From the IMG/VR virus record IMGVR_UViG_3300032668_000073, positions 1 to 35,573 of that record: 35,573 bases of DNA. One strand, written 5' to 3'. The DNA is from a virus. The notes beneath the pieces were generated by a model. That model saw only the letters and a program-made list of their open reading frames with translations, searched no databases and had not been told where the DNA came from. Shown here piece after piece: positions 1-11,049 of the stretch (within the stretch, counting starts at the first letter, position 1; each line of letters opens with the position of its first letter). The translations under genes and the position numbers were made by a program.

Positions 1-160
1 ATTCTGGATAGTTATATGTTGTTACTAATCGGCCGTCCACCATAGTATTTGATGGAACTCCTTTAAACCAATTTAATTGAAAAGACCCATCTGAGTTTGT
101 AGTTATTGAGATGTTGCAATTAACAAAATCGTTTTTAAATGGTCTAACATAAAATTTCAT
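1..160 (-). CDS. Small protein of unknown function, 3' end outside window (partial)
   Basis: Reading leftwards from an ATG at 160, the frame stays open to the window edge (53 complete codons). A purine-rich ribosome-binding site (GGAAAT) lies just upstream of the ATG. The protein begins MKFYVRPFKNDF and continues with a Ser/Thr/Asn-rich, beta-like stretch. It follows directly after the three NCNCNC-tailed genes on the same strand, so it probably belongs to the same late transcript. I do not recognise the family; a virion or fibre-associated role is inferred from context only. Confidence 0.6.
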   Translation of the reverse strand, partial: MKFYVRPFKNDFVNCNISITTNSDGSFQLNWFKGVPSNTMVDGRLVTTYNYPE

Positions 161-174
161 ATCTATTTCCTTGA

Positions 175-438
175 TTAACAATTACAATTACAATTACCGA
201 CCATACTGCCCATATAGTTACCATTTATATCGTAGTAGTATAACGCCAATGCCATACCACTGCCACCCCAGGTAAAATGATTACCTGTTTCACCTATTCT
301 TGCATGAGTCGGTGATTGGGCAGTTAGGGTGGTATACCCACTGTCATTTGTAAAGGTACTGACATTAGTTGGTGTTTTTGTGCTTTGTGTAGTACCATCA
401 CCAAATGTAATCGTTCCGTTTCCTAATGTTGCGCTCAT
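175..438 (-). CDS. NCNCNC-tailed small fibre-like protein, copy A
   Basis: 87 residues. The first ~35 residues carry motifs seen in phage tail-fibre proteins: LGNGTITFGDGT (5-16) and an FTNDSGY motif (29-35). The middle (about 38-80) differs from its two neighbours, while the end is the alternating tail NCNCNC. This is the third of three tandem paralogues (the others start at 706 and 985). No good ribosome-binding site precedes its ATG, and the gap to the upstream copy is only 7 nt, so it may be translated by coupling. The fibre-type N-terminus and the late promoter upstream suggest a virion surface part. The function of the Asn-Cys tail is unknown. Confidence 0.75.
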   Translation of the reverse strand: MSATLGNGTITFGDGTTQSTKTPTNVSTFTNDSGYTTLTAQSPTHARIGETGNHFTWGGSGMALALYYYDINGNYMGSMVGNCNCNC

Positions 439-445
439 AGTTTAA

Positions 446-706
446 TTAGCAATTACAGTTGCAATTAGCCCCTCCACCCCAAATATTATTATTATTAATA
501 TCAGACAAATATAGTGTAAGCCCATAACCCCAAGACCCTTGAAAACTACCTACTGACTGTGCTTTTGTTGCGTAAGTTGCTGCTACATTACTCGGCGTTA
601 GATATCCGCTGTCGTTAGTAAAGGCACTGACATTGGCTGGCGTTGCTGTAGTTTGCACAGTACCGTCCCCGAATGTTATTGTTCCATTTCCTAAGGTTTC
701 GCTCAT
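446..706 (-). CDS. NCNCNC-tailed small fibre-like protein, copy B
   Basis: 86 residues and the middle copy of the tandem set. The N-terminus (LGNGTITFGDGT, then an FTNDSGYLT motif) is nearly identical to copy A. Residues ~40-78 are different in sequence but again end in an aromatic/Gly-rich segment (LTLYLSDIN, then GGGANCNCNC). The conserved start, variable centre and conserved end suggest paralogues diversified in the part that would contact a partner. There are 15 nt between this gene and copy C. An adhesin or fibre-tip role is inferred; no homologue of known function is recognised. Confidence 0.75.
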   Translation of the reverse strand: MSETLGNGTITFGDGTVQTTATPANVSAFTNDSGYLTPSNVAATYATKAQSVGSFQGSWGYGLTLYLSDINNNNIWGGGANCNCNC

Positions 707-721
707 AATTTAATGTTCTCT

Positions 722-985
722 TTAACAATTACAGTTACAATTCCACGGACCTGCTGTGCCTAGATAAGCGCCAGATATACTATAATAATACAATACGCCA
801 TTACGACTTGCACTACCAGTGACTGAATGTATAGAATTAGGTATTGTCGACCATGTTGCAGCAGCCAAGCTCGGTATTAGGTAAGAACTATCATTAGTGA
901 AAGCACTAACATTAGTTGGTGTTTTTGTTGTTTGGACAGTTCCATCACCAAATGTAACTATTCCATTTCCTAATATTGTTGCCAT
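722..985 (-). CDS. NCNCNC-tailed small fibre-like protein, copy C
   Basis: 87 residues and the first gene of the tandem set, 25 nt downstream of a perfect T4-type late promoter at 1010-1017. The N-terminus is LGNGIVTFGDGT followed by an FTNDSSYL motif. The middle is variable, with a YYYSISGAYLG segment that resembles YYYDINGNYMG of copy A. The C-terminus is PWNCNCNC. The weak ribosome-binding site is GGA about 7 nt before the ATG. Having its own late promoter shows that the array can be transcribed separately from the large structural operon upstream. Function unknown; probably a virion surface protein. Confidence 0.75.
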   Translation of the reverse strand: MATILGNGIVTFGDGTVQTTKTPTNVSAFTNDSSYLIPSLAAATWSTIPNSIHSVTGSASRNGVLYYYSISGAYLGTAGPWNCNCNC

Positions 986-1023: not shown

Positions 1024-1212
1024 TTATGTTGTAGCACCATAAAATTGATTTAAATTTATTGTGCCAGAAGTAGGTATAGATGCATTTGTAACGACATTAG
1101 GAACAATTGAACCGTCCCTATAAAAGTTTGCAAATGAAATATTTGTATTGGAAAGACCATATTCTACAGCAAGAGATGCAAAATCTATTTTTCCTGATAC
1201 TTGAATAGGCAT
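1024..1212 (-). CDS. Small virion structural protein (IPTSG...FYGA type)
   Basis: 62 residues: MPIQVSGKIDF at the start, an ISFANFYRDGSIVPN segment in the middle and a final IPTSGTINLNQFYGA. Short proteins with this 'SG.I....FYR.G..VP......IPTSG.I....FYGA' layout are common in T4-like marine phages and are usually annotated as virion structural proteins. The start is supported by GAAAGG upstream, within the last codons of the fibre gene, from which it is separated by 2 nt. It probably decorates or caps a fibre; the exact role is not known. Confidence 0.7.
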   Translation of the reverse strand: MPIQVSGKIDFASLAVEYGLSNTNISFANFYRDGSIVPNVVTNASIPTSGTINLNQFYGATT

Positions 1213-1214
1213 TT

Positions 1215-2252
1215 TTATTTACCTTTCAATTCATCTACTTCTGCTTTCAATTCTTTAACTGCTTCAACAAGTAGAGCAACAATCCGGTCGTATTTGATAG
1301 CTTTATATCCATCATTTGTTGTTGCAACAATTTCTGGAAGAATTTCTTCCACTTCTTGAGCAATAAGACCAACATCATGTTTTCTTATAAAATAACCATC
1401 TTCACCACCATGGTCTTCAATATATTTGTCAGTCCAATCATAAGTTACACCATTAATTTTTTTAAGCTTATCTAATGGATTTACAATGTTAATAATATTT
1501 TCTTTTAGTCGTTTATCTGATGAATAGAAAGCAGTAATATTATTTATAGCACGAATTTCACCAATAGTACCTGATTGAAGAGTACCAACACCTAATGAAT
1601 ATATTCTAGCATTTGCAGATGTTGTTTGGCCTATTGCTACATTATCTAATGTACCACCAGTAATTGTACCACCAGTAATATTGACTGCACTAGAGTTTTG
1701 TGTAGACATAGTTCCTAATGAACCTGTAGCACTAGTTATGGCTGTTGTTACAAACCCTGTTGTAGCAATCATTGTATTGGATGTACCAGTTGCTGGAGTA
1801 GCTGATGTTGGCGCACCTGTAAATGAAGGAGATGGTTGTATTTGTGATGAAGTGATGTAACCAGCTATTTGTGTATTAGCTACTGATGATACCTGAGCAG
1901 GAGTTATCGCACCATTAAATGTTGTACCATTAATTGATATCGAAGGTGTAGAAATTAAACCTGAAGATACTAAAGTTAAACTCGTATTTTGTAAGTATAA
2001 TTGGCCGCCAATGATACCATTATTTTGAATATAAGTTGAATTAGCGGAACCTAATGATTGGAAATAACCATAGGAAATAGTATTACCAGCAAGTTGAAGG
2101 CCTAATTGAGTTGAATCTAGATATAATGCACCTGTAGGTTTATGCCAGTTACCATAGCCAATAGCATCCACTTCGTTACTAAGTAAATTGGTTGTAACTA
2201 ACCAGTCACCAAAGGTGTTTGCGTAACTTAATGCTGATACAGTATTTGCCAT
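1215..2252 (-). CDS. Tail fibre protein with C-terminal S74 intramolecular chaperone
   Basis: 345 residues. Residues 1-~240 are a beta-rich, Asn/Thr/Ser/Gly-rich fibre shaft with TPATGTSNTMIATTGFV, typical of phage fibres. From about residue 243, the sequence SSDKRLKENI, then GVTYDW, HDVGLIAQEVEE and YDRIVALLVEAVKEL forms a Peptidase_S74 (endosialidase chaperone) domain. In this family the domain trimerises the fibre and then cleaves itself off at a Ser-Asp bond; here the candidate is the SD of SSDKRLK. The C-terminal helix (about 320-345) has coiled-coil character. The gene sits 3 nt downstream of a small coiled-coil protein and 2 nt upstream of the 62-aa protein. It is likely a receptor-binding fibre or part of it. 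Confidence 0.88.
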   Translation of the reverse strand: MANTVSALSYANTFGDWLVTTNLLSNEVDAIGYGNWHKPTGALYLDSTQLGLQLAGNTISYGYFQSLGSANSTYIQNNGIIGGQLYLQNTSLTLVSSGLISTPSISINGTTFNGAITPAQVSSVANTQIAGYITSSQIQPSPSFTGAPTSATPATGTSNTMIATTGFVTTAITSATGSLGTMSTQNSSAVNITGGTITGGTLDNVAIGQTTSANARIYSLGVGTLQSGTIGEIRAINNITAFYSSDKRLKENIINIVNPLDKLKKINGVTYDWTDKYIEDHGGEDGYFIRKHDVGLIAQEVEEILPEIVATTNDGYKAIKYDRIVALLVEAVKELKAEVDELKGK

Positions 2253-5400: not shown

Positions 5401-8400
5401 ACCTATACCAGTAACAGAGCCTGAACTATGTAGAGATATGATAGAGTTACCTTTAAATACAACGGTACCTGAAGCTGTATTAGAATTTAATACATAGTTT
5501 CCGTTTTGGTCGTAAGTTGCGTTAATTAAAGTTGTTGTTGGAACATTGGTTGGTATATTAACCAAATCAGCAACATACAATCTTGAATTAGATGTGTTAG
5601 CATAGTTGTGTGAAGTAACAATTCTAGCAACTGGATAAAATGTATTAGCACTTGCATAATAGAAACCAACAATTTGGTTATCCAAGAATGTACCAGAAAC
5701 ATTTGTTAATTCAATTGTGTTAGGTGCGCTAATATATTGATTAACATTTTGTCCGTCAAACCAGCATTGAACTGGTGTATTAACCAACATATTTTGTGCT
5801 TTAACAATAAGCTCTTGTGGTCTAATATATGGTAATACACTAACATTTGTTACAAATCCATTATTAACCAATAAAGCTGATGATGTTGTAGTTGTTGGAG
5901 TTTGTGCAAGACCAACTAATTGATTAGAGAATATTTGATTATTTGCAGCAGCTGTAACAATACCTTGAGTGGATGTTACTGTTGAAGATGTACCAACTAA
6001 TGATTGGAAATCTCCAGCAAAAATTGCAGTAAGGCCACCATTAGGAACTTGTGTGAACTGTAATGATGGATCGTTACTTAATAAAGCAGGTATTTCTTGT
6101 GTTGTTACCCAATTATCCATAGGTGGAACAAGAGATGCAACACCTCCTTGTGTAATGACAGAGAAAGGATTTACACTTATAGTATTACTTGCTAGTGGTT
6201 GAGATATTACATTAGCAGTCGTGTAAGGTAACATAAAAATGTTTGTTTGTGTACCTGCAACACTATTAATAGAGTATCCTGTTGATGAACCAGTTGCAGT
6301 ACCTAAACTGTTAAGAACAGCTGGATTTTGTAATTGGAAATTAACTACAGATGTAACAGGTGATAATTGTTGTGTTCTTACATTAATATTAGCTGAGAAA
6401 CTTGGATCATATGAAGCTGCTGTTGCATATGAACTAAAGTTATCAACTAAAATACCATATTTAAATCTATTAATACCATTTACATCAGGTGTTTGTAAAC
6501 CAATTGCATTTTGTTCAAGCACATTTAATGCTGTGTAATATTCTAGATTATCAACTTGTGTTTGTAAATCTGTAATGTCAGATTTTGCCCAACGCTTATG
6601 AATAACTTTTTGTAATGAAAGATTTGTTGGAGCAACTAAATCGTTATCTGTTGAAATATGAGCTGTATATGGATCAAGAGATAAGTTAGCAAGAACTAAT
6701 GCACCATTTGGTTCTTTAGGAAGAACTGGTGTAAGTGAAGGAGTTCCTTGAACAATAGAGAATATATTATCTTTTGTTAATACAAGTTTATCTTTTCTTG
6801 CTAAGTAGTATGAGTATATACTATTAAAGTTTGTTAAGTTTATTGGTATTTCTACACCTTGTGTAGATGAAGTACCTGTATTATATTCCCATGTGAACGC
6901 ATTTGTACCTTTTGTTCTTGTTGGTCTAAAGTCTAAAGAATCTCTTAATTGGTATGTTGCGCCATCTTTAGCTGTGTAGCTAGGAATAGTAGTGTAATTT
7001 GGATAAGAGTTAGCGGTAAAGTAACCATCGCCACCAGAATGTAGATAATAATTGTAAACAACAATGATATTACCACCAGGCAATGGAACACCCGGCAATA
7101 ATTGAATTGATGAATGGTCATAATAACTATCTTTTTGACCACTATTCAATGTAAAATTAGAAGTGATATTCGTATAACCTGTTATTGAAGCACCAGCAGT
7201 TGGTGTAACTGTAGCACTACCTGTATCGTAAATAGCTACAATATTTTGCACATCATTAGTATATAATGACATAGCATTTCTAGAAATACCATTTGCAAAA
7301 ATATAAACTTGACCGTTAGCATTGTTAGAACCATCAAGACTGATTAATGTATTAGATACGCCTGTAACATTAGTAGTTGCAACAAAATTTGTATTAGCTA
7401 TACTATTATAACCTGCACCATAGTATGTTTTTGTTTTTCTTGCATTGTCAGCTAAACCAACATATACAGATGCTAAAACTGTTACATTAGAATGAACAGC
7501 TGAGTTATAATTAATTAATGTTATTGTAGCAGAAGATGTGCTTGTTAATGTTGCAGAACCATTTGATGATGCTGATGTAAAATCTAAAATTTGACCAGTT
7601 TGATTTGATATAAATGTAAATATTTGTTTAAATGCATCACCTTGATATGTTGAACCTACTGAACCATTAAATTGAATATAAGCAGAATTAGGAATATTCA
7701 ATACTAATTGTTTAGATGATGAGTTAAATGATTGGTTACGGAATGTTTGAACACTATAGTAACTTGAGTTGGATACTTGAGCAACATATGGATAACCAAG
7801 TGGGAATATTAATTCTGTTTGACCAGGATTTTGTAATACTGTTTGGCCGTAATATGAACCACCAGATTTACCAAAAATTGCATTAATATTTACGTTAGCT
7901 GTTAATGTTGAACCACCAGATGCATTGAATCCATATCCATTTCTTTGAACGATAGAATTAATGTATGTTTGTTTAAATGTTATTGAGAAGGTACTTGTGC
8001 TATCTGGTGTAACAGTAAATGCTGGGAATACGTTTGCTGTTCTTGTTGCACCATTGTAGTTTACAATTGTTCTTGTGTCTGTTGCATAGTTTGGAGGTCC
8101 GTCTGTACCACCAGTAATAGATAAAACTGCTCCGTAGTAAGCGTTTGCAGCTGATGAAAATACGTTAGCTGTATCATTAAATGTAATTGTAGTTGGTGTT
8201 GCAGAAGCAACTGTACCTGTTAATACGTTAGTATTAATATCATGCACATAAGCTTTATAGATGTATCCAGCTGTGTTAGCAGTATTAGAACCGGATTGAA
8301 CATATTGTAATCCTCTAATAAAGCCTGATCCAAGTAATGTTGAATTGTATATGTTTGAGTTAGCAGTATTAACGCTAGCAGCTGGAACAGAATGGAAATC

Positions 8401-9573
8401 TACAGCAGGAACTGATGCAACATCAAAGAAACCATTAGATGTATCAACATAGAAATAATTACCGTAATCAACTAAAACAGTATTTGTATTAATTGTGGCA
8501 GTATTTTGTGCTCGAGGTGCAGTTAATGTTATAGCTGATTGATTTTGAATTCTATAACCACGAACATATGCAATACCTTTACCAATTGTTAAATCGTAAT
8601 TGGATGAGATACCTAATGCATTTGCTGAAGGTGTTAATTTAAAATCTTTAACAATATAATCGCCATTGGTTTCATAATCACGCTTAGCAAAATAATCATC
8701 AATAACATTATATACTGTGCCATCAACTTGTTTAACAATTTGGCCACCACTAACACGAACTAATTCAATAAATCCAGTATCATTTCCTAATGTTAATGGA
8801 TATGTTGTTAATGTTAAATTAATTTGATATCTGTCAGCACCAGGTGCTTGATAATTAGATGCACCAATAGATGGGTCTAATAATGAAACATCTTGTGATG
8901 ATGTAACTTCTGTTTCAGTAATTTGTAAACCAATACGAAGACTTGGTGAATTATCGAATTGGTCAAGAATAATTGTTTGTGGATTTACTTGAACAAAATT
9001 ACCAATTGCATAAGGTATGCCAGTTGAAGCTGAAATATTACTTCCACTTACGACATAAAATACACCAGATGAAATAGATGCAGTAGATGATGGTCCTGTG
9101 CAAGTCGAGCCGCCTGTTACACCAATTGTTGTAGCAAAAACATTTGAGCCATCAGTTGGAATAATTTGTGTACCATCACTAAATTTAACACCTGATTGAT
9201 ATGTAACAACTAAAGTTGGAGGAGTTCCATTTGAGAATTCTGTTGTTGCAATAACTTTAGCACGAACGGTGCCTGTAGGATCAGTAATTGTTTTATTTAA
9301 AAATGATGAAGCTACAATATTAATACCAGAATATTGTGTATTAAGTTTAATATAATAGGCATTTAAATTTGTAGTTACCTTACCACCACTAATAGGAGTA
9401 TTTTGCTTAAAAATATTAGCAGCAAAATTTGATATTTGATTTTGAAGAATTGTTTGAGATTGAGTTAATTCTCTAGCTTGAATAGCAACGCCAGGCTTAA
9501 ACAATATGCGATGGAAATTTTTTGATGGATCAAAATCGTCAAAATACGGGGTAACATTAAAATTAATTGCCAT
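2485..9573 (-). CDS. Giant DUF4815-type virion structural protein
   Basis: 2362 residues, a fifth of the window. The N-terminus (MAINFNVTPYFDDFD, then FHRILFKPGVAIQARELTQ) is the signature of the DUF4815 virion protein of T4-like cyanophages, a baseplate/tail component. The sequence is almost wholly beta-type (Asn/Thr/Ser/Gly/Val rich). Residues ~1400-1513 look like an inserted beta-sandwich carbohydrate-binding-type module (FYGIWGDQNASG, GSYLITASVHSSATIYIDG, TLTAGLHNITW). Residues ~1880-2000 (QSFIVDKNTYPNGVFLSSV and following) return to the DUF4815 pattern. Near the C-terminus (~2120-2200) are GSGY...P.ITI repeats shared with gp6, gp7-like and gp8. It lies between gp8 and the fibre genes, so it probably connects the baseplate rim to fibres. 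Confidence 0.85.
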   Translation of the reverse strand: MAINFNVTPYFDDFDPSKNFHRILFKPGVAIQARELTQSQTILQNQISNFAANIFKQNTPISGGKVTTNLNAYYIKLNTQYSGINIVASSFLNKTITDPTGTVRAKVIATTEFSNGTPPTLVVTYQSGVKFSDGTQIIPTDGSNVFATTIGVTGGSTCTGPSSTASISSGVFYVVSGSNISASTGIPYAIGNFVQVNPQTIILDQFDNSPSLRIGLQITETEVTSSQDVSLLDPSIGASNYQAPGADRYQINLTLTTYPLTLGNDTGFIELVRVSGGQIVKQVDGTVYNVIDDYFAKRDYETNGDYIVKDFKLTPSANALGISSNYDLTIGKGIAYVRGYRIQNQSAITLTAPRAQNTATINTNTVLVDYGNYFYVDTSNGFFDVASVPAVDFHSVPAASVNTANSNIYNSTLLGSGFIRGLQYVQSGSNTANTAGYIYKAYVHDINTNVLTGTVASATPTTITFNDTANVFSSAANAYYGAVLSITGGTDGPPNYATDTRTIVNYNGATRTANVFPAFTVTPDSTSTFSITFKQTYINSIVQRNGYGFNASGGSTLTANVNINAIFGKSGGSYYGQTVLQNPGQTELIFPLGYPYVAQVSNSSYYSVQTFRNQSFNSSSKQLVLNIPNSAYIQFNGSVGSTYQGDAFKQIFTFISNQTGQILDFTSASSNGSATLTSTSSATITLINYNSAVHSNVTVLASVYVGLADNARKTKTYYGAGYNSIANTNFVATTNVTGVSNTLISLDGSNNANGQVYIFANGISRNAMSLYTNDVQNIVAIYDTGSATVTPTAGASITGYTNITSNFTLNSGQKDSYYDHSSIQLLPGVPLPGGNIIVVYNYYLHSGGDGYFTANSYPNYTTIPSYTAKDGATYQLRDSLDFRPTRTKGTNAFTWEYNTGTSSTQGVEIPINLTNFNSIYSYYLARKDKLVLTKDNIFSIVQGTPSLTPVLPKEPNGALVLANLSLDPYTAHISTDNDLVAPTNLSLQKVIHKRWAKSDITDLQTQVDNLEYYTALNVLEQNAIGLQTPDVNGINRFKYGILVDNFSSYATAASYDPSFSANINVRTQQLSPVTSVVNFQLQNPAVLNSLGTATGSSTGYSINSVAGTQTNIFMLPYTTANVISQPLASNTISVNPFSVITQGGVASLVPPMDNWVTTQEIPALLSNDPSLQFTQVPNGGLTAIFAGDFQSLVGTSSTVTSTQGIVTAAANNQIFSNQLVGLAQTPTTTTSSALLVNNGFVTNVSVLPYIRPQELIVKAQNMLVNTPVQCWFDGQNVNQYISAPNTIELTNVSGTFLDNQIVGFYYASANTFYPVARIVTSHNYANTSNSRLYVADLVNIPTNVPTTTLINATYDQNGNYVLNSNTASGTVVFKGNSIISLHSSGSVTGIGRYSANGTTVQTYKAPTNSSYSNFLNFYGIWGDQNASGSYNTTATGLNAPYSFNASQAGSYLITASVHSSATIYIDGVAVLSPGVGSITTPATTTVTLTAGLHNITWNAVSAGGISAIAITIQNNIPSSAAYNNVVWDTLTPTSISASNNSITYLPGGGAYYLSANTISLDKNASNVSGFYANSTISVKSTYVYAYNYGALYIPPYPPLSGDGDAANVNRYNAAKAAYLASAVQTFYGNALTGPSYTGGIYLAATQTYTATVLGYDGATRTATLSNGVGVSLGVNQQYGPIPSQYTIQGTAYSVAGAIAQGNTLSQLSTNESGVFAGVFNCPGSQFYIGDRVFRVDNRTVASDPGSATTWAEATFYAGTVHATVTNADYSSSVDSSVIPVTPVNNNNNTVVQNSTNTQKYNVDPIAQSFIVDKNTYPNGVFLSSVKLFFYSKPYTNVPIQLSIVGTQNGVPNGQTLDHSTVVLQPQQVNVSSVPSAANAATWTTFTFSAPVYIQPNTLYAMVLRSNSTEYQVYLAQQNATAVPSTGVTKIGAAPYVGALFETQNSITWTADQTKDLMFIIDKCVFNTSVTPTIPFTVPYNLPYRKYSRYDILSKTNPTAIPNMNSYFSPSVPMDAINVSTTDFIPSLTNINYSYYTTLYNGFTTTALKPITPGRYGTPSPDNTYLNDGLGERVLLNTQNNSFGLYATLSSSDPNVSPVISDDGLSLYNITYHINNLNITNNCIQIANTGSGYNGNTANLGTITISPPDIGTNTAVLAFTANANTGNITSVYVTYPGSGYIKTPTITINDPTTRGGNSNAVIQFSGETSYTGGNGLAKYITKKVILNAGNDSGDLRVWYTAYKPLGADVYVYYRILSSSDTSSLDNQNWQPMVQISQLNTYSTNRTNLIEYEFAPGIPSANTNVTGYYSGAANNNIQYTSTNGSTYTNFIQFQIKLVMVAQDPTQVPFLSDVRAIALPSGTYI

Positions 9574-9582
9574 TTTATTCCT

Positions 9583-11049
9583 TTAATATCCTAATACAAT
9601 TTTAAATTGTTCTATGCCTTCTGGACTTCTTGTAATGCCTGTTCTATTTTCTATGTAAGCCATATAACCAGAGAAAGGTATAAAAGTAGGTGTAACTACT
9701 CCGTTTGGTAATAATGTTCTTGTTGCACCAGAACCATCTCCAAAAACAGGTGAATTCACTATTGGAGTTCCTGTTATATTTATGACATCTATTATATTAT
9801 TTGCAGCGTCCCAATTAAGAACTGTAGCAAAAAATGTTGCTGTTGCTAAAGATGTTCCACCTTGATAGATGACCTCATCTTGATTGTAATTACCTGGTCC
9901 AGGCGCAACAGTTAATAAGGTTGATACTTTATATATGTTTGAGTTGGCAGGTAATAAAATAGTTTGTCCGCTAAGATTTCCTGGTGCATTAGATGGCACA
10001 ATAGTATCGTATGCATCTGGATTAATAAGAAGACCTAATTGTCTATATTCAATATTTGTTGGTATATAAGGATAATTATTAGCGTTTGTTCCTTCTGAAC
10101 CATTGAATTCAACAGATAACATAAAATTATGGCATCCTAATTCAGAAGATGGATCCATACCATGACCACCGATAGGACTTATAGGTGCTATAGCTTCCGC
10201 ACCTGAACCTGTTCCGTCATCATTTACTGTAATATTTACAGCAGCTGTTGTATAGAAAGAACCTGGATTAGTTACAATGACATCAACAACTGAACCATTT
10301 ACAACATTAGCAGTTCCTGATGCATTTATTCCGTCACCAATAATAGTAACTATAGTATTTGATGGACCATAACCAGAACCACCATTTGTAACATTGATAA
10401 CTTCAATGTCACCCCAACCAGCAGATGTTTCAAGTGGGTCAGGAGTTGTAGATGTGTATAATGCGCCTAAATGGATTGGCATCCATTTATCATCCAAGTA
10501 TTTTAATGCATCACCAGCAGGAATACTATAGATGTATTTCCATTTGTAACCATCTGAACCTTGGAATATGTTATTGTTTGTATTATATTGAGCAGGTGTA
10601 AAGAAAGGTTCTACTGTAGAAGGATTACCGTTATTATTCCATAAGCACTTGAATACTTGATTATAACTATTTTTTACATAGAAATTATAAACATTATTTC
10701 CAACAGAATCAAGCTCTAAAATATCAACTGTATCCAAATAATAATCGTATGTAGTGCCTGATGTCCAATTTACTCTAGAAATAACACCAGAAACTCTGTC
10801 TTGTGTAATTTTCTTTGCAACAAAAATATTTTTAAATACAGACTTTATGTATTGTTGTGTTTGTTGTGGAGGATCAGGATTATTTTCATCTCCCCATGGA
10901 TCAATACGAGAAAGGAAAACATATAATGTACCAATAACTGGTGAATATCCAGGTAAAAGAACTGTTGGTAATATAGCAACAGGTGCATAAAAATCTTGCG
11001 AGACCTGTGCTACCCTTGAACCATATGTCAATATCGATTTTGTAGTCAT
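9583..11049 (-). CDS. 8: Baseplate wedge protein gp8
   Basis: 488 residues, longer than T4 gp8 (334). Family features seen: an early FLSRIDPWGDENNPDPP segment (cf. FGRSEPW in T4 gp8), VYNFYVKNSYNQVFKCLWNN, SDGYKWKYIYSIP (T4: GDGYVWEYLFEIP) and a closing SGYMAYIENRTGI...EGIEQFKIVLGY that matches the T4 gp8 end (GEMIYMENRPPI...TEEINILF). In T4, gp8 dimers join the wedge with gp10, gp7 and gp6. The extra length comes partly from a beta-repeat insert at ~215-290 with GGSGYGPS and NPGSFYTT. It is preceded by 20 nt after the 926-aa gene and followed after 9 nt by the giant DUF4815 gene. Confidence 0.88.
   Translation of the reverse strand: MTTKSILTYGSRVAQVSQDFYAPVAILPTVLLPGYSPVIGTLYVFLSRIDPWGDENNPDPPQQTQQYIKSVFKNIFVAKKITQDRVSGVISRVNWTSGTTYDYYLDTVDILELDSVGNNVYNFYVKNSYNQVFKCLWNNNGNPSTVEPFFTPAQYNTNNNIFQGSDGYKWKYIYSIPAGDALKYLDDKWMPIHLGALYTSTTPDPLETSAGWGDIEVINVTNGGSGYGPSNTIVTIIGDGINASGTANVVNGSVVDVIVTNPGSFYTTAAVNITVNDDGTGSGAEAIAPISPIGGHGMDPSSELGCHNFMLSVEFNGSEGTNANNYPYIPTNIEYRQLGLLINPDAYDTIVPSNAPGNLSGQTILLPANSNIYKVSTLLTVAPGPGNYNQDEVIYQGGTSLATATFFATVLNWDAANNIIDVINITGTPIVNSPVFGDGSGATRTLLPNGVVTPTFIPFSGYMAYIENRTGITRSPEGIEQFKIVLGY

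Follow-up and report, generated by a model that had tools for sequence, protein, structure and literature searches.

A stretch of viral DNA of 35,573 bases recorded in IMG/VR (hereafter the window) encodes three small adjacent fibre-type proteins that all terminate in the hexapeptide NCNCNC, which raises the question of what an alternating Asn-Cys string might be for at the very end of a phage protein. An earlier note on this DNA had offered metal binding, locking of trimers by disulfides or a tag for attachment or modification as options, and had taken the variable centre of the proteins for a diversified host-contact surface.

The mini-fibre genes of the window

The three tandem paralogues described in that note are confirmed as open reading frames (Table 1), with the stop codon TAA directly following NCNCNC in each of them. 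Relative to gene 3 as reference, genes 1 and 2 show 51–56% identity; in the alignment of the three copies, residues 1–35 are conserved, the centre is variable and the final six residues are invariant. The common fibre-type N-terminus proposed earlier holds for the motif FGDGT (3/3 proteins) but only partly for FTNDSGY, which is found in two of them and is replaced by FTNDSSY in gene 1. The tail codons differ synonymously among the copies. Likewise, comparison with the orthologues in L110 reveals 1, 3 and 3 changes in the 18 bases, all silent, leaving 6/6 tail residues identical in each pair. Hence, the NCNCNC tail is conserved at the protein level. Free loss of the tail among homologues, named in the note as an argument against its reading, was not observed, as 36/36 aligned mini-fibres keep N-C-x-C-x-C. 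Pfam and PHROG searches with the three proteins gave no match, nor did tblastn with a mini-fibre query against cultured phages.

Table 1. Features at the beginning of the window, in window positions.
Feature	Position	Strand	Remarks
Companion gene, 5' end (MKFYVRPFKND...)	1..160	minus	cut by record edge
Mini-fibre gene 3	175..438	minus	87 aa; NCNCNC encoded at 178-195
Mini-fibre gene 2	446..706	minus	86 aa; NCNCNC encoded at 449-466
Mini-fibre gene 1	722..985	minus	87 aa; NCNCNC encoded at 725-742
TATAAATA octamer, possible T4-type late promoter	1010-1017	minus	25-32 nt before first start codon
62-aa protein, phrog_30374	1024..1212	minus	N-terminus resembles, by eye, Cys-rich NC-tail proteins of L013/L015-type phages
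345-aa fibre protein with C-terminal Peptidase_S74 intramolecular chaperone	1215..2252	minus	upstream, same direction

The genetic setting fits the suggested host contact, the genes being paralogues with a variable centre that lie in a structural region and adjoin an S74 fibre gene. The order of S74 fibre and NC-tail genes recurs in L089, L336 and L338. A baseplate protein encoded in the window comes closest to its counterparts in Pelagibacter and Methylophilales myoviruses. As to the dedicated late promoter assumed in the note, the octamer TATAAATA is present upstream of the cassette but such octamers are not more frequent in the window than expected by chance (4 observed versus 8.1 expected), so that a promoter function is only tentatively suggested.

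Homology to the closest relatives, L089 and L110 (86.9% DNA identity over window bases 1–977), ends where the first mini-fibre gene begins, and most of the window beyond base 977 has no match in these otherwise different phages, indicating that the cassette is an exchangeable module with a boundary at this point. The gene order in L089/L110 is three mini-fibres, two proteins of about 250 aa, three 2OG-Fe(II)-type oxygenases (two above the Pfam cut-off, the third weaker) and a radical-SAM enzyme, the latter starting 3.4 kb downstream of the final tail gene. The homologue of the truncated companion in L089 has 253 aa and a C-terminal Ig-like (Big_1-like) domain. A radical-SAM gene was not found in the 35.6-kb window record, whose edge falls in the first 53 codons of this companion gene and, thus, before the expected place; judging from the closest relative, the phage of the window is expected to carry the enzyme as well.

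Tail, enzyme and their linkage

As advised in the earlier note, (NC)3-type tails and their gene neighbours were surveyed by scanning 2.9 million viral contigs for the pattern NCNCNC-TAA, which revealed many phage fibre-like proteins with a radical-SAM/SPASM enzyme encoded downstream. The pattern was matched 106 times, with about 85 matches at the end of genuine ORFs; the mirrored control CNCNCN-TAA was matched 40 times, and just 3 of these matches fall in long ORFs, without a fibre among them. Scaffolds bearing the tail are small FGDGT proteins (in tandem threes), LRSTKGSPLTN fibres of about 400 aa and very Asn/Cys-rich proteins, and single-linkage clustering of the pre-tail parts results in seven unconnected groups. 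Tandem mini-fibre cassettes near that of the window all possess the tail, for example, as NCNCNCNC, NCNCACNC, NCYCNCNC or NCNCQCNC. Among 108 non-redundant tails adjoining the enzyme, X in (X-Cys)n is Asn in 76%, Ala in 10%, Asp in 8% and Gly in less than 1% of cases; 104 tails begin with Asn as X, and the number of repeats ranges from 3 to 10. No leader peptide was seen, the tail representing the C-terminus of the fibre protein: 74 of the 108 are located exactly at the C-terminus, 24 not more than 12 aa from it and 9 directly before the motif CFPxGT, with which a Hint domain starts. Correspondingly, Hom_end_hint (Pfam) begins directly after the tail in gp28 of Achromobacter phage JWF, and weaker Hint matches were obtained in L197 and L234. 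Hint domains self-cleave. In some phages, the domain fused after the tail would, hence, cut itself off and restore the tail as C-terminus.

Tail codon choice tracks genome GC (rho 0.67 over loci of 28–65% GC) while the peptide stays the same, so the peptide is what is being selected. The tails, encoded by simple repeats of the type (AAYTGY)n, might be mistaken for low-complexity DNA repeats or sequencing artefacts. This reading is refuted, and left with virtually no probability, by the synonymous codon variation, the GC-following codons, the position at the end of reading frames and the unenriched mirrored control; protein-level constancy and the rarity of ORF ends in that control also speak against a chance string. 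NCNCNC can arise for other reasons, however, as it also ends two unrelated non-fibre families for which the enzyme was not found in the records, a phage protein family of 184–190 aa (L014, L050, L062, L098) and a structural-looking family of 202 aa (L017, L039, L055, L069, L081, L102). Relatives of the latter in L140 and L153 end in CNCNCN. Furthermore, L013, L015, L056, L071, L273 and L279 encode proteins of 125–173 aa which consist mostly of Asn and Cys (GNCNNGNCGNCNCNCGNICC...) and adjoin the radical-SAM gene.

According to the gene neighbourhoods, the enzyme encoded downstream of the tail genes is a 450–490-aa protein with the motif GLSCNYECxYC. It belongs to the radical SAM superfamily and the SPASM subfamily. 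All four enzymes scanned pass the NCBIfam SPASM cut-off (TIGR04085) and three that of Pfam Radical_SAM (PF04055), the most divergent one, from L083, scoring just below. Membership in the SPASM subfamily is judged by seven further Cys in CX9-15GX4C...CX2CX5CX3C...C, and CX3CX2C plus seven such Cys (CX13GX4C...CX2CX5CX3C...C) are invariant in 15 diverse members. In addition, 4/4 members match phrog_1802 (radical SAM domain-containing protein) at E values of 1e-52 to 1e-69. In full-length matching to NCBIfam, three of the four enzymes score best with the PapB ranthipeptide maturase, at 57–75 bits versus an equivalog cut-off of 340 bits. As none of the curated cut-offs of named RiPP maturases is reached by the enzyme homologues, homology does not reveal the product. 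An AlphaFold model of the enzyme (pLDDT 83, pTM 0.85) matches in the PDB CteB first, followed by TigE, anSMEcpe, ChlB, SuiB and SkfB, with EpeE also among the matches; these are mostly peptide- or protein-modifying enzymes, CteB being a thioether maturase. At least 570 viral contigs encode the enzyme, and it is also present in prophages, chiefly of Burkholderiales and Alphaproteobacteria.

Several loci show peculiarities. An uncultured Bacilli contig (L320) has a distant version from outside Proteobacteria, in which a 192-aa protein ending in NCNCDCNNDCKD precedes three consecutive radical-SAM homologues. In L186, L202 and L239, the enzyme is part of a longer cluster with several genes for proteins of 230–290 aa without known function (MTEWPYKLAQHAGRYDDLIY..., MMLNFNLRMDN...), and on the Polynucleobacter necessarius chromosome (L312) it is split into three frames, likely in a decaying prophage. 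Phage-like contigs with the system also carry the MAG labels Klebsiella pneumoniae (L318) and Akkermansia muciniphila (L253, L263), probably binning errors because close relatives occur in Burkholderiales.

Starting from the tail, the enzyme was found in the whole record of 73/84 fibre-type loci; in ten of the eleven negative ones, less than 1.05 kb is available downstream of the tail, the eleventh being L064. Where both are present, the enzyme is encoded downstream on the same strand. Loci of the non-fibre NCNCNC families (0 of 11), records with chance pattern matches (1/21) and control records, with tail-less FGDGT relatives among them (0/43), gave a different picture. The tail-less relatives (L114, L119, L122) are not counted as cases of free loss, since no such enzyme was found in their records. 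When the enzyme was taken as starting point, 74 viral loci, two cultured phages included, offered 4 kb or more of upstream sequence. In 71 of them, a tail gene precedes the enzyme on the same strand; seven of the tails were recognized only by six-frame inspection. Rejected as enzyme-without-tail exceptions were L336, L337, L338 and L340, where the tail is encoded by the following gene or in a different frame. In bacterial genome contigs, an upstream tail is present in about 50/60 loci, and several of the tail-less ones represent distant enzyme cousins in apparently chromosomal, non-phage settings. No recognizable tail was found near some distant cousins in Variovorax, Ramlibacter and Phaeospirillum; those in L301, L305, L308 and L315 (Ramlibacter, Variovorax) might be cellular relatives acting on another substrate.

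With an unrelated fibre N-terminus as starting point, loci were considered if the ORF was complete and 1.2 kb or more was available downstream. Tail and enzyme occur together in 13 of these loci and are both missing from 44, and no locus has the tail only or the enzyme only (Fisher p = 4e-13, computed without correction for relatedness); all these linkage counts are not independent because the loci share ancestry. One hallmark of RiPP precursors is genetic linkage of a substrate, conserved in its core residues, to the maturase, and the tails show this hallmark; another is a leader peptide whose removal releases the mature peptide. Among the cultured phages with the system are Achromobacter phages JWF (L163, NC_029075, positions 6796–8247 and 8953–10317) and 2-1 (L164), where the fibre tail NCNCDCNCNCSC runs into the Hint domain and the radical-SAM gene is located two genes downstream.

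In most loci, a 240–310-aa protein with a terminal Ig-like domain is encoded between tail and enzyme. A quick profile detected this companion in 47/72 viral loci, and PF13759-type 2OG-Fe(II) oxygenases were present in 52/72, while both are missing from the 40 control loci. The oxygenase was rejected as key partner and is regarded as accessory because it is absent from a whole fibre group. The Ig-like protein and, in many phages, one to three oxygenases would probably assist or add hydroxyl groups.

Probable maturation of the tail and alternative explanations

We consider it likely that phage fibre-tip proteins carry (X-Cys)n tails which are matured by a phage-encoded radical-SAM/SPASM enzyme, presumably with formation of thioethers. 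The proteins would be made with their final 6–20 residues alternating between a small residue, mostly Asn, and Cys, and the SPASM maturase, normally encoded a few kilobases downstream, would modify this tail after translation, with (X-Cys)n serving as core. That the tail itself is the direct substrate appears highly probable from the gene linkage. Cys sulfur would then be joined to a carbon of the neighbouring Asn/Asp, most likely via thioether bonds, as the nearest characterized relatives form Cys-to-carbon thioethers and Asn/Asp are the usual neighbours of Cys here. PapB accepts Cys-Xn-Asp with n = 0–6 (PMC9413430). On such analogies, the case for thioether cross-linking as the actual chemistry is evenly balanced. 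The bonds would create a rigid, redox-stable and protease-resistant distal tip contacting the host. A role of the tip at the host contact is suggested by the fibre setting, the location of the tail at the protein end, the variable centre and the exchange of the module, and we somewhat favour a receptor-binding function of the tip. RiPP-like maturation of tail-fibre tips, sometimes with 2OG-Fe(II) oxygenases and a tail-freeing Hint domain, is rather likely to be a widespread phage system. Thus, from the options of the earlier note, a tag for modification is favoured by the tight linkage, whereas metal binding or disulfides alone leave the enzyme unexplained but may be features of the finished tip.

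The enzyme might act on the tail by another chemistry, such as Cys conversion to formylglycine in an anSME-like manner, epimerization to D-residues or a different modification at Asn C-H. With anSMEcpe and the epimerase EpeE among the fold matches, the JWF enzyme deposited as anaerobic sulfatase-maturating enzyme, scores not reaching the curated thioether maturase cut-offs and nearby 2OG-Fe(II) oxygenases that could act on Asn, this is a possibility to be taken into account, yet a clearly less probable one, as CteB (top fold match) and PapB (usual family match) form thioethers on Cys-rich substrates and a Cys strictly alternating with Asn/Asp agrees well with a pairing of these residues. Moreover, the CxPxR/CxAxR-type motif of anSME is absent.

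It is unlikely that the tails remain unmodified, with Cys facing the trimer axis for metal binding or disulfide formation and the enzyme being a neighbour with another role. Alternation is expected of a beta-strand with one inward face, His-rich stretches directly precede the tail in some relatives, and an AlphaFold model of the mini-fibre (built with 36 relatives; pLDDT 57, too poor for interpretation) has, at low confidence, a strand directly before the tail; the all-or-none co-occurrence of tail and enzyme, which spans several fibre scaffolds and more than 100 loci, would, however, be left unexplained. Even less credible, and very improbable altogether, is the idea of an enzyme with an auxiliary metabolic or an antiviral (viperin-like) role which just happens to be encoded in the same hypervariable region. 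The enzyme matches viperin models weakly, and in pelagimyophages radical-SAM cassettes have been noted within the cluster for host recognition but were not connected with fibre tails (PMC7029224). Against this stand the full SPASM domain and the linkage to one short feature in conserved order and strand, with 44 comparable fibre loci having neither; viperin-like defence was, therefore, rejected.

Novelty and comparison with known systems

Radical-SAM modification of Cys-rich peptides and, with QhpD, of a protein subunit is already known. In the literature searched, with scant coverage of subscription journals and bioRxiv, no description was found of a radical-SAM modification of virion fibres, of the (Asn-Cys)n tail, of its Hint fusion or of a link between phrog_1802 and fibre tails, and we know of no description of radical-chemistry modification of its own virion for any part of a virus. 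Accordingly, the system would be a new form of radical-SAM protein maturation and very surprising for phage biology. If the proposed maturation is correct, phages modify their own virions by radical chemistry, a large orphan radical-SAM family (the viral contigs and prophages mentioned above) gains a function, a so far unstudied kind of receptor-binding tip exists and enzymes modifying the C-terminus of a folded protein are on offer. The cultured Achromobacter phages JWF and 2-1, which encode the enzyme near the tail, represent the best experimental entry point.

The PapB-PapA and CteB-CteA pairs (ranthipeptide/SCIFF) resemble the present case in having a SPASM radical-SAM enzyme beside a Cys-rich substrate. 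Unlike there, the substrate here is a fibre protein with the core at its extreme C-terminus, a strict (X-Cys)n pattern with Asn and no evident leader. QhpD (TIGR03906) is a radical-SAM enzyme that places thioether bonds in a subunit of a larger protein instead of a free peptide; it matches the L013 enzyme at E 1e-17 and 64 bits versus a cut-off of 453, belongs to another subfamily with another substrate motif and is not viral. PHROGs assigns no function to phrog_1802, which includes the enzyme. HxH motifs in T4 gp37 bind iron. The tails can be likened to such tips of trimeric fibres, where side chains alternate at the distal end, but these contain His in place of Cys and have no radical-SAM enzyme. 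In the His-Xaa-Ser system, a short alternating repeat tail is paired with radical-SAM maturases, HxsB/HxsC with HxsA, and the HxsB model weakly matches the enzyme; the differences are the Asn-Cys repeat, the location on phage fibres and the two enzymes employed in HxsB/HxsC.
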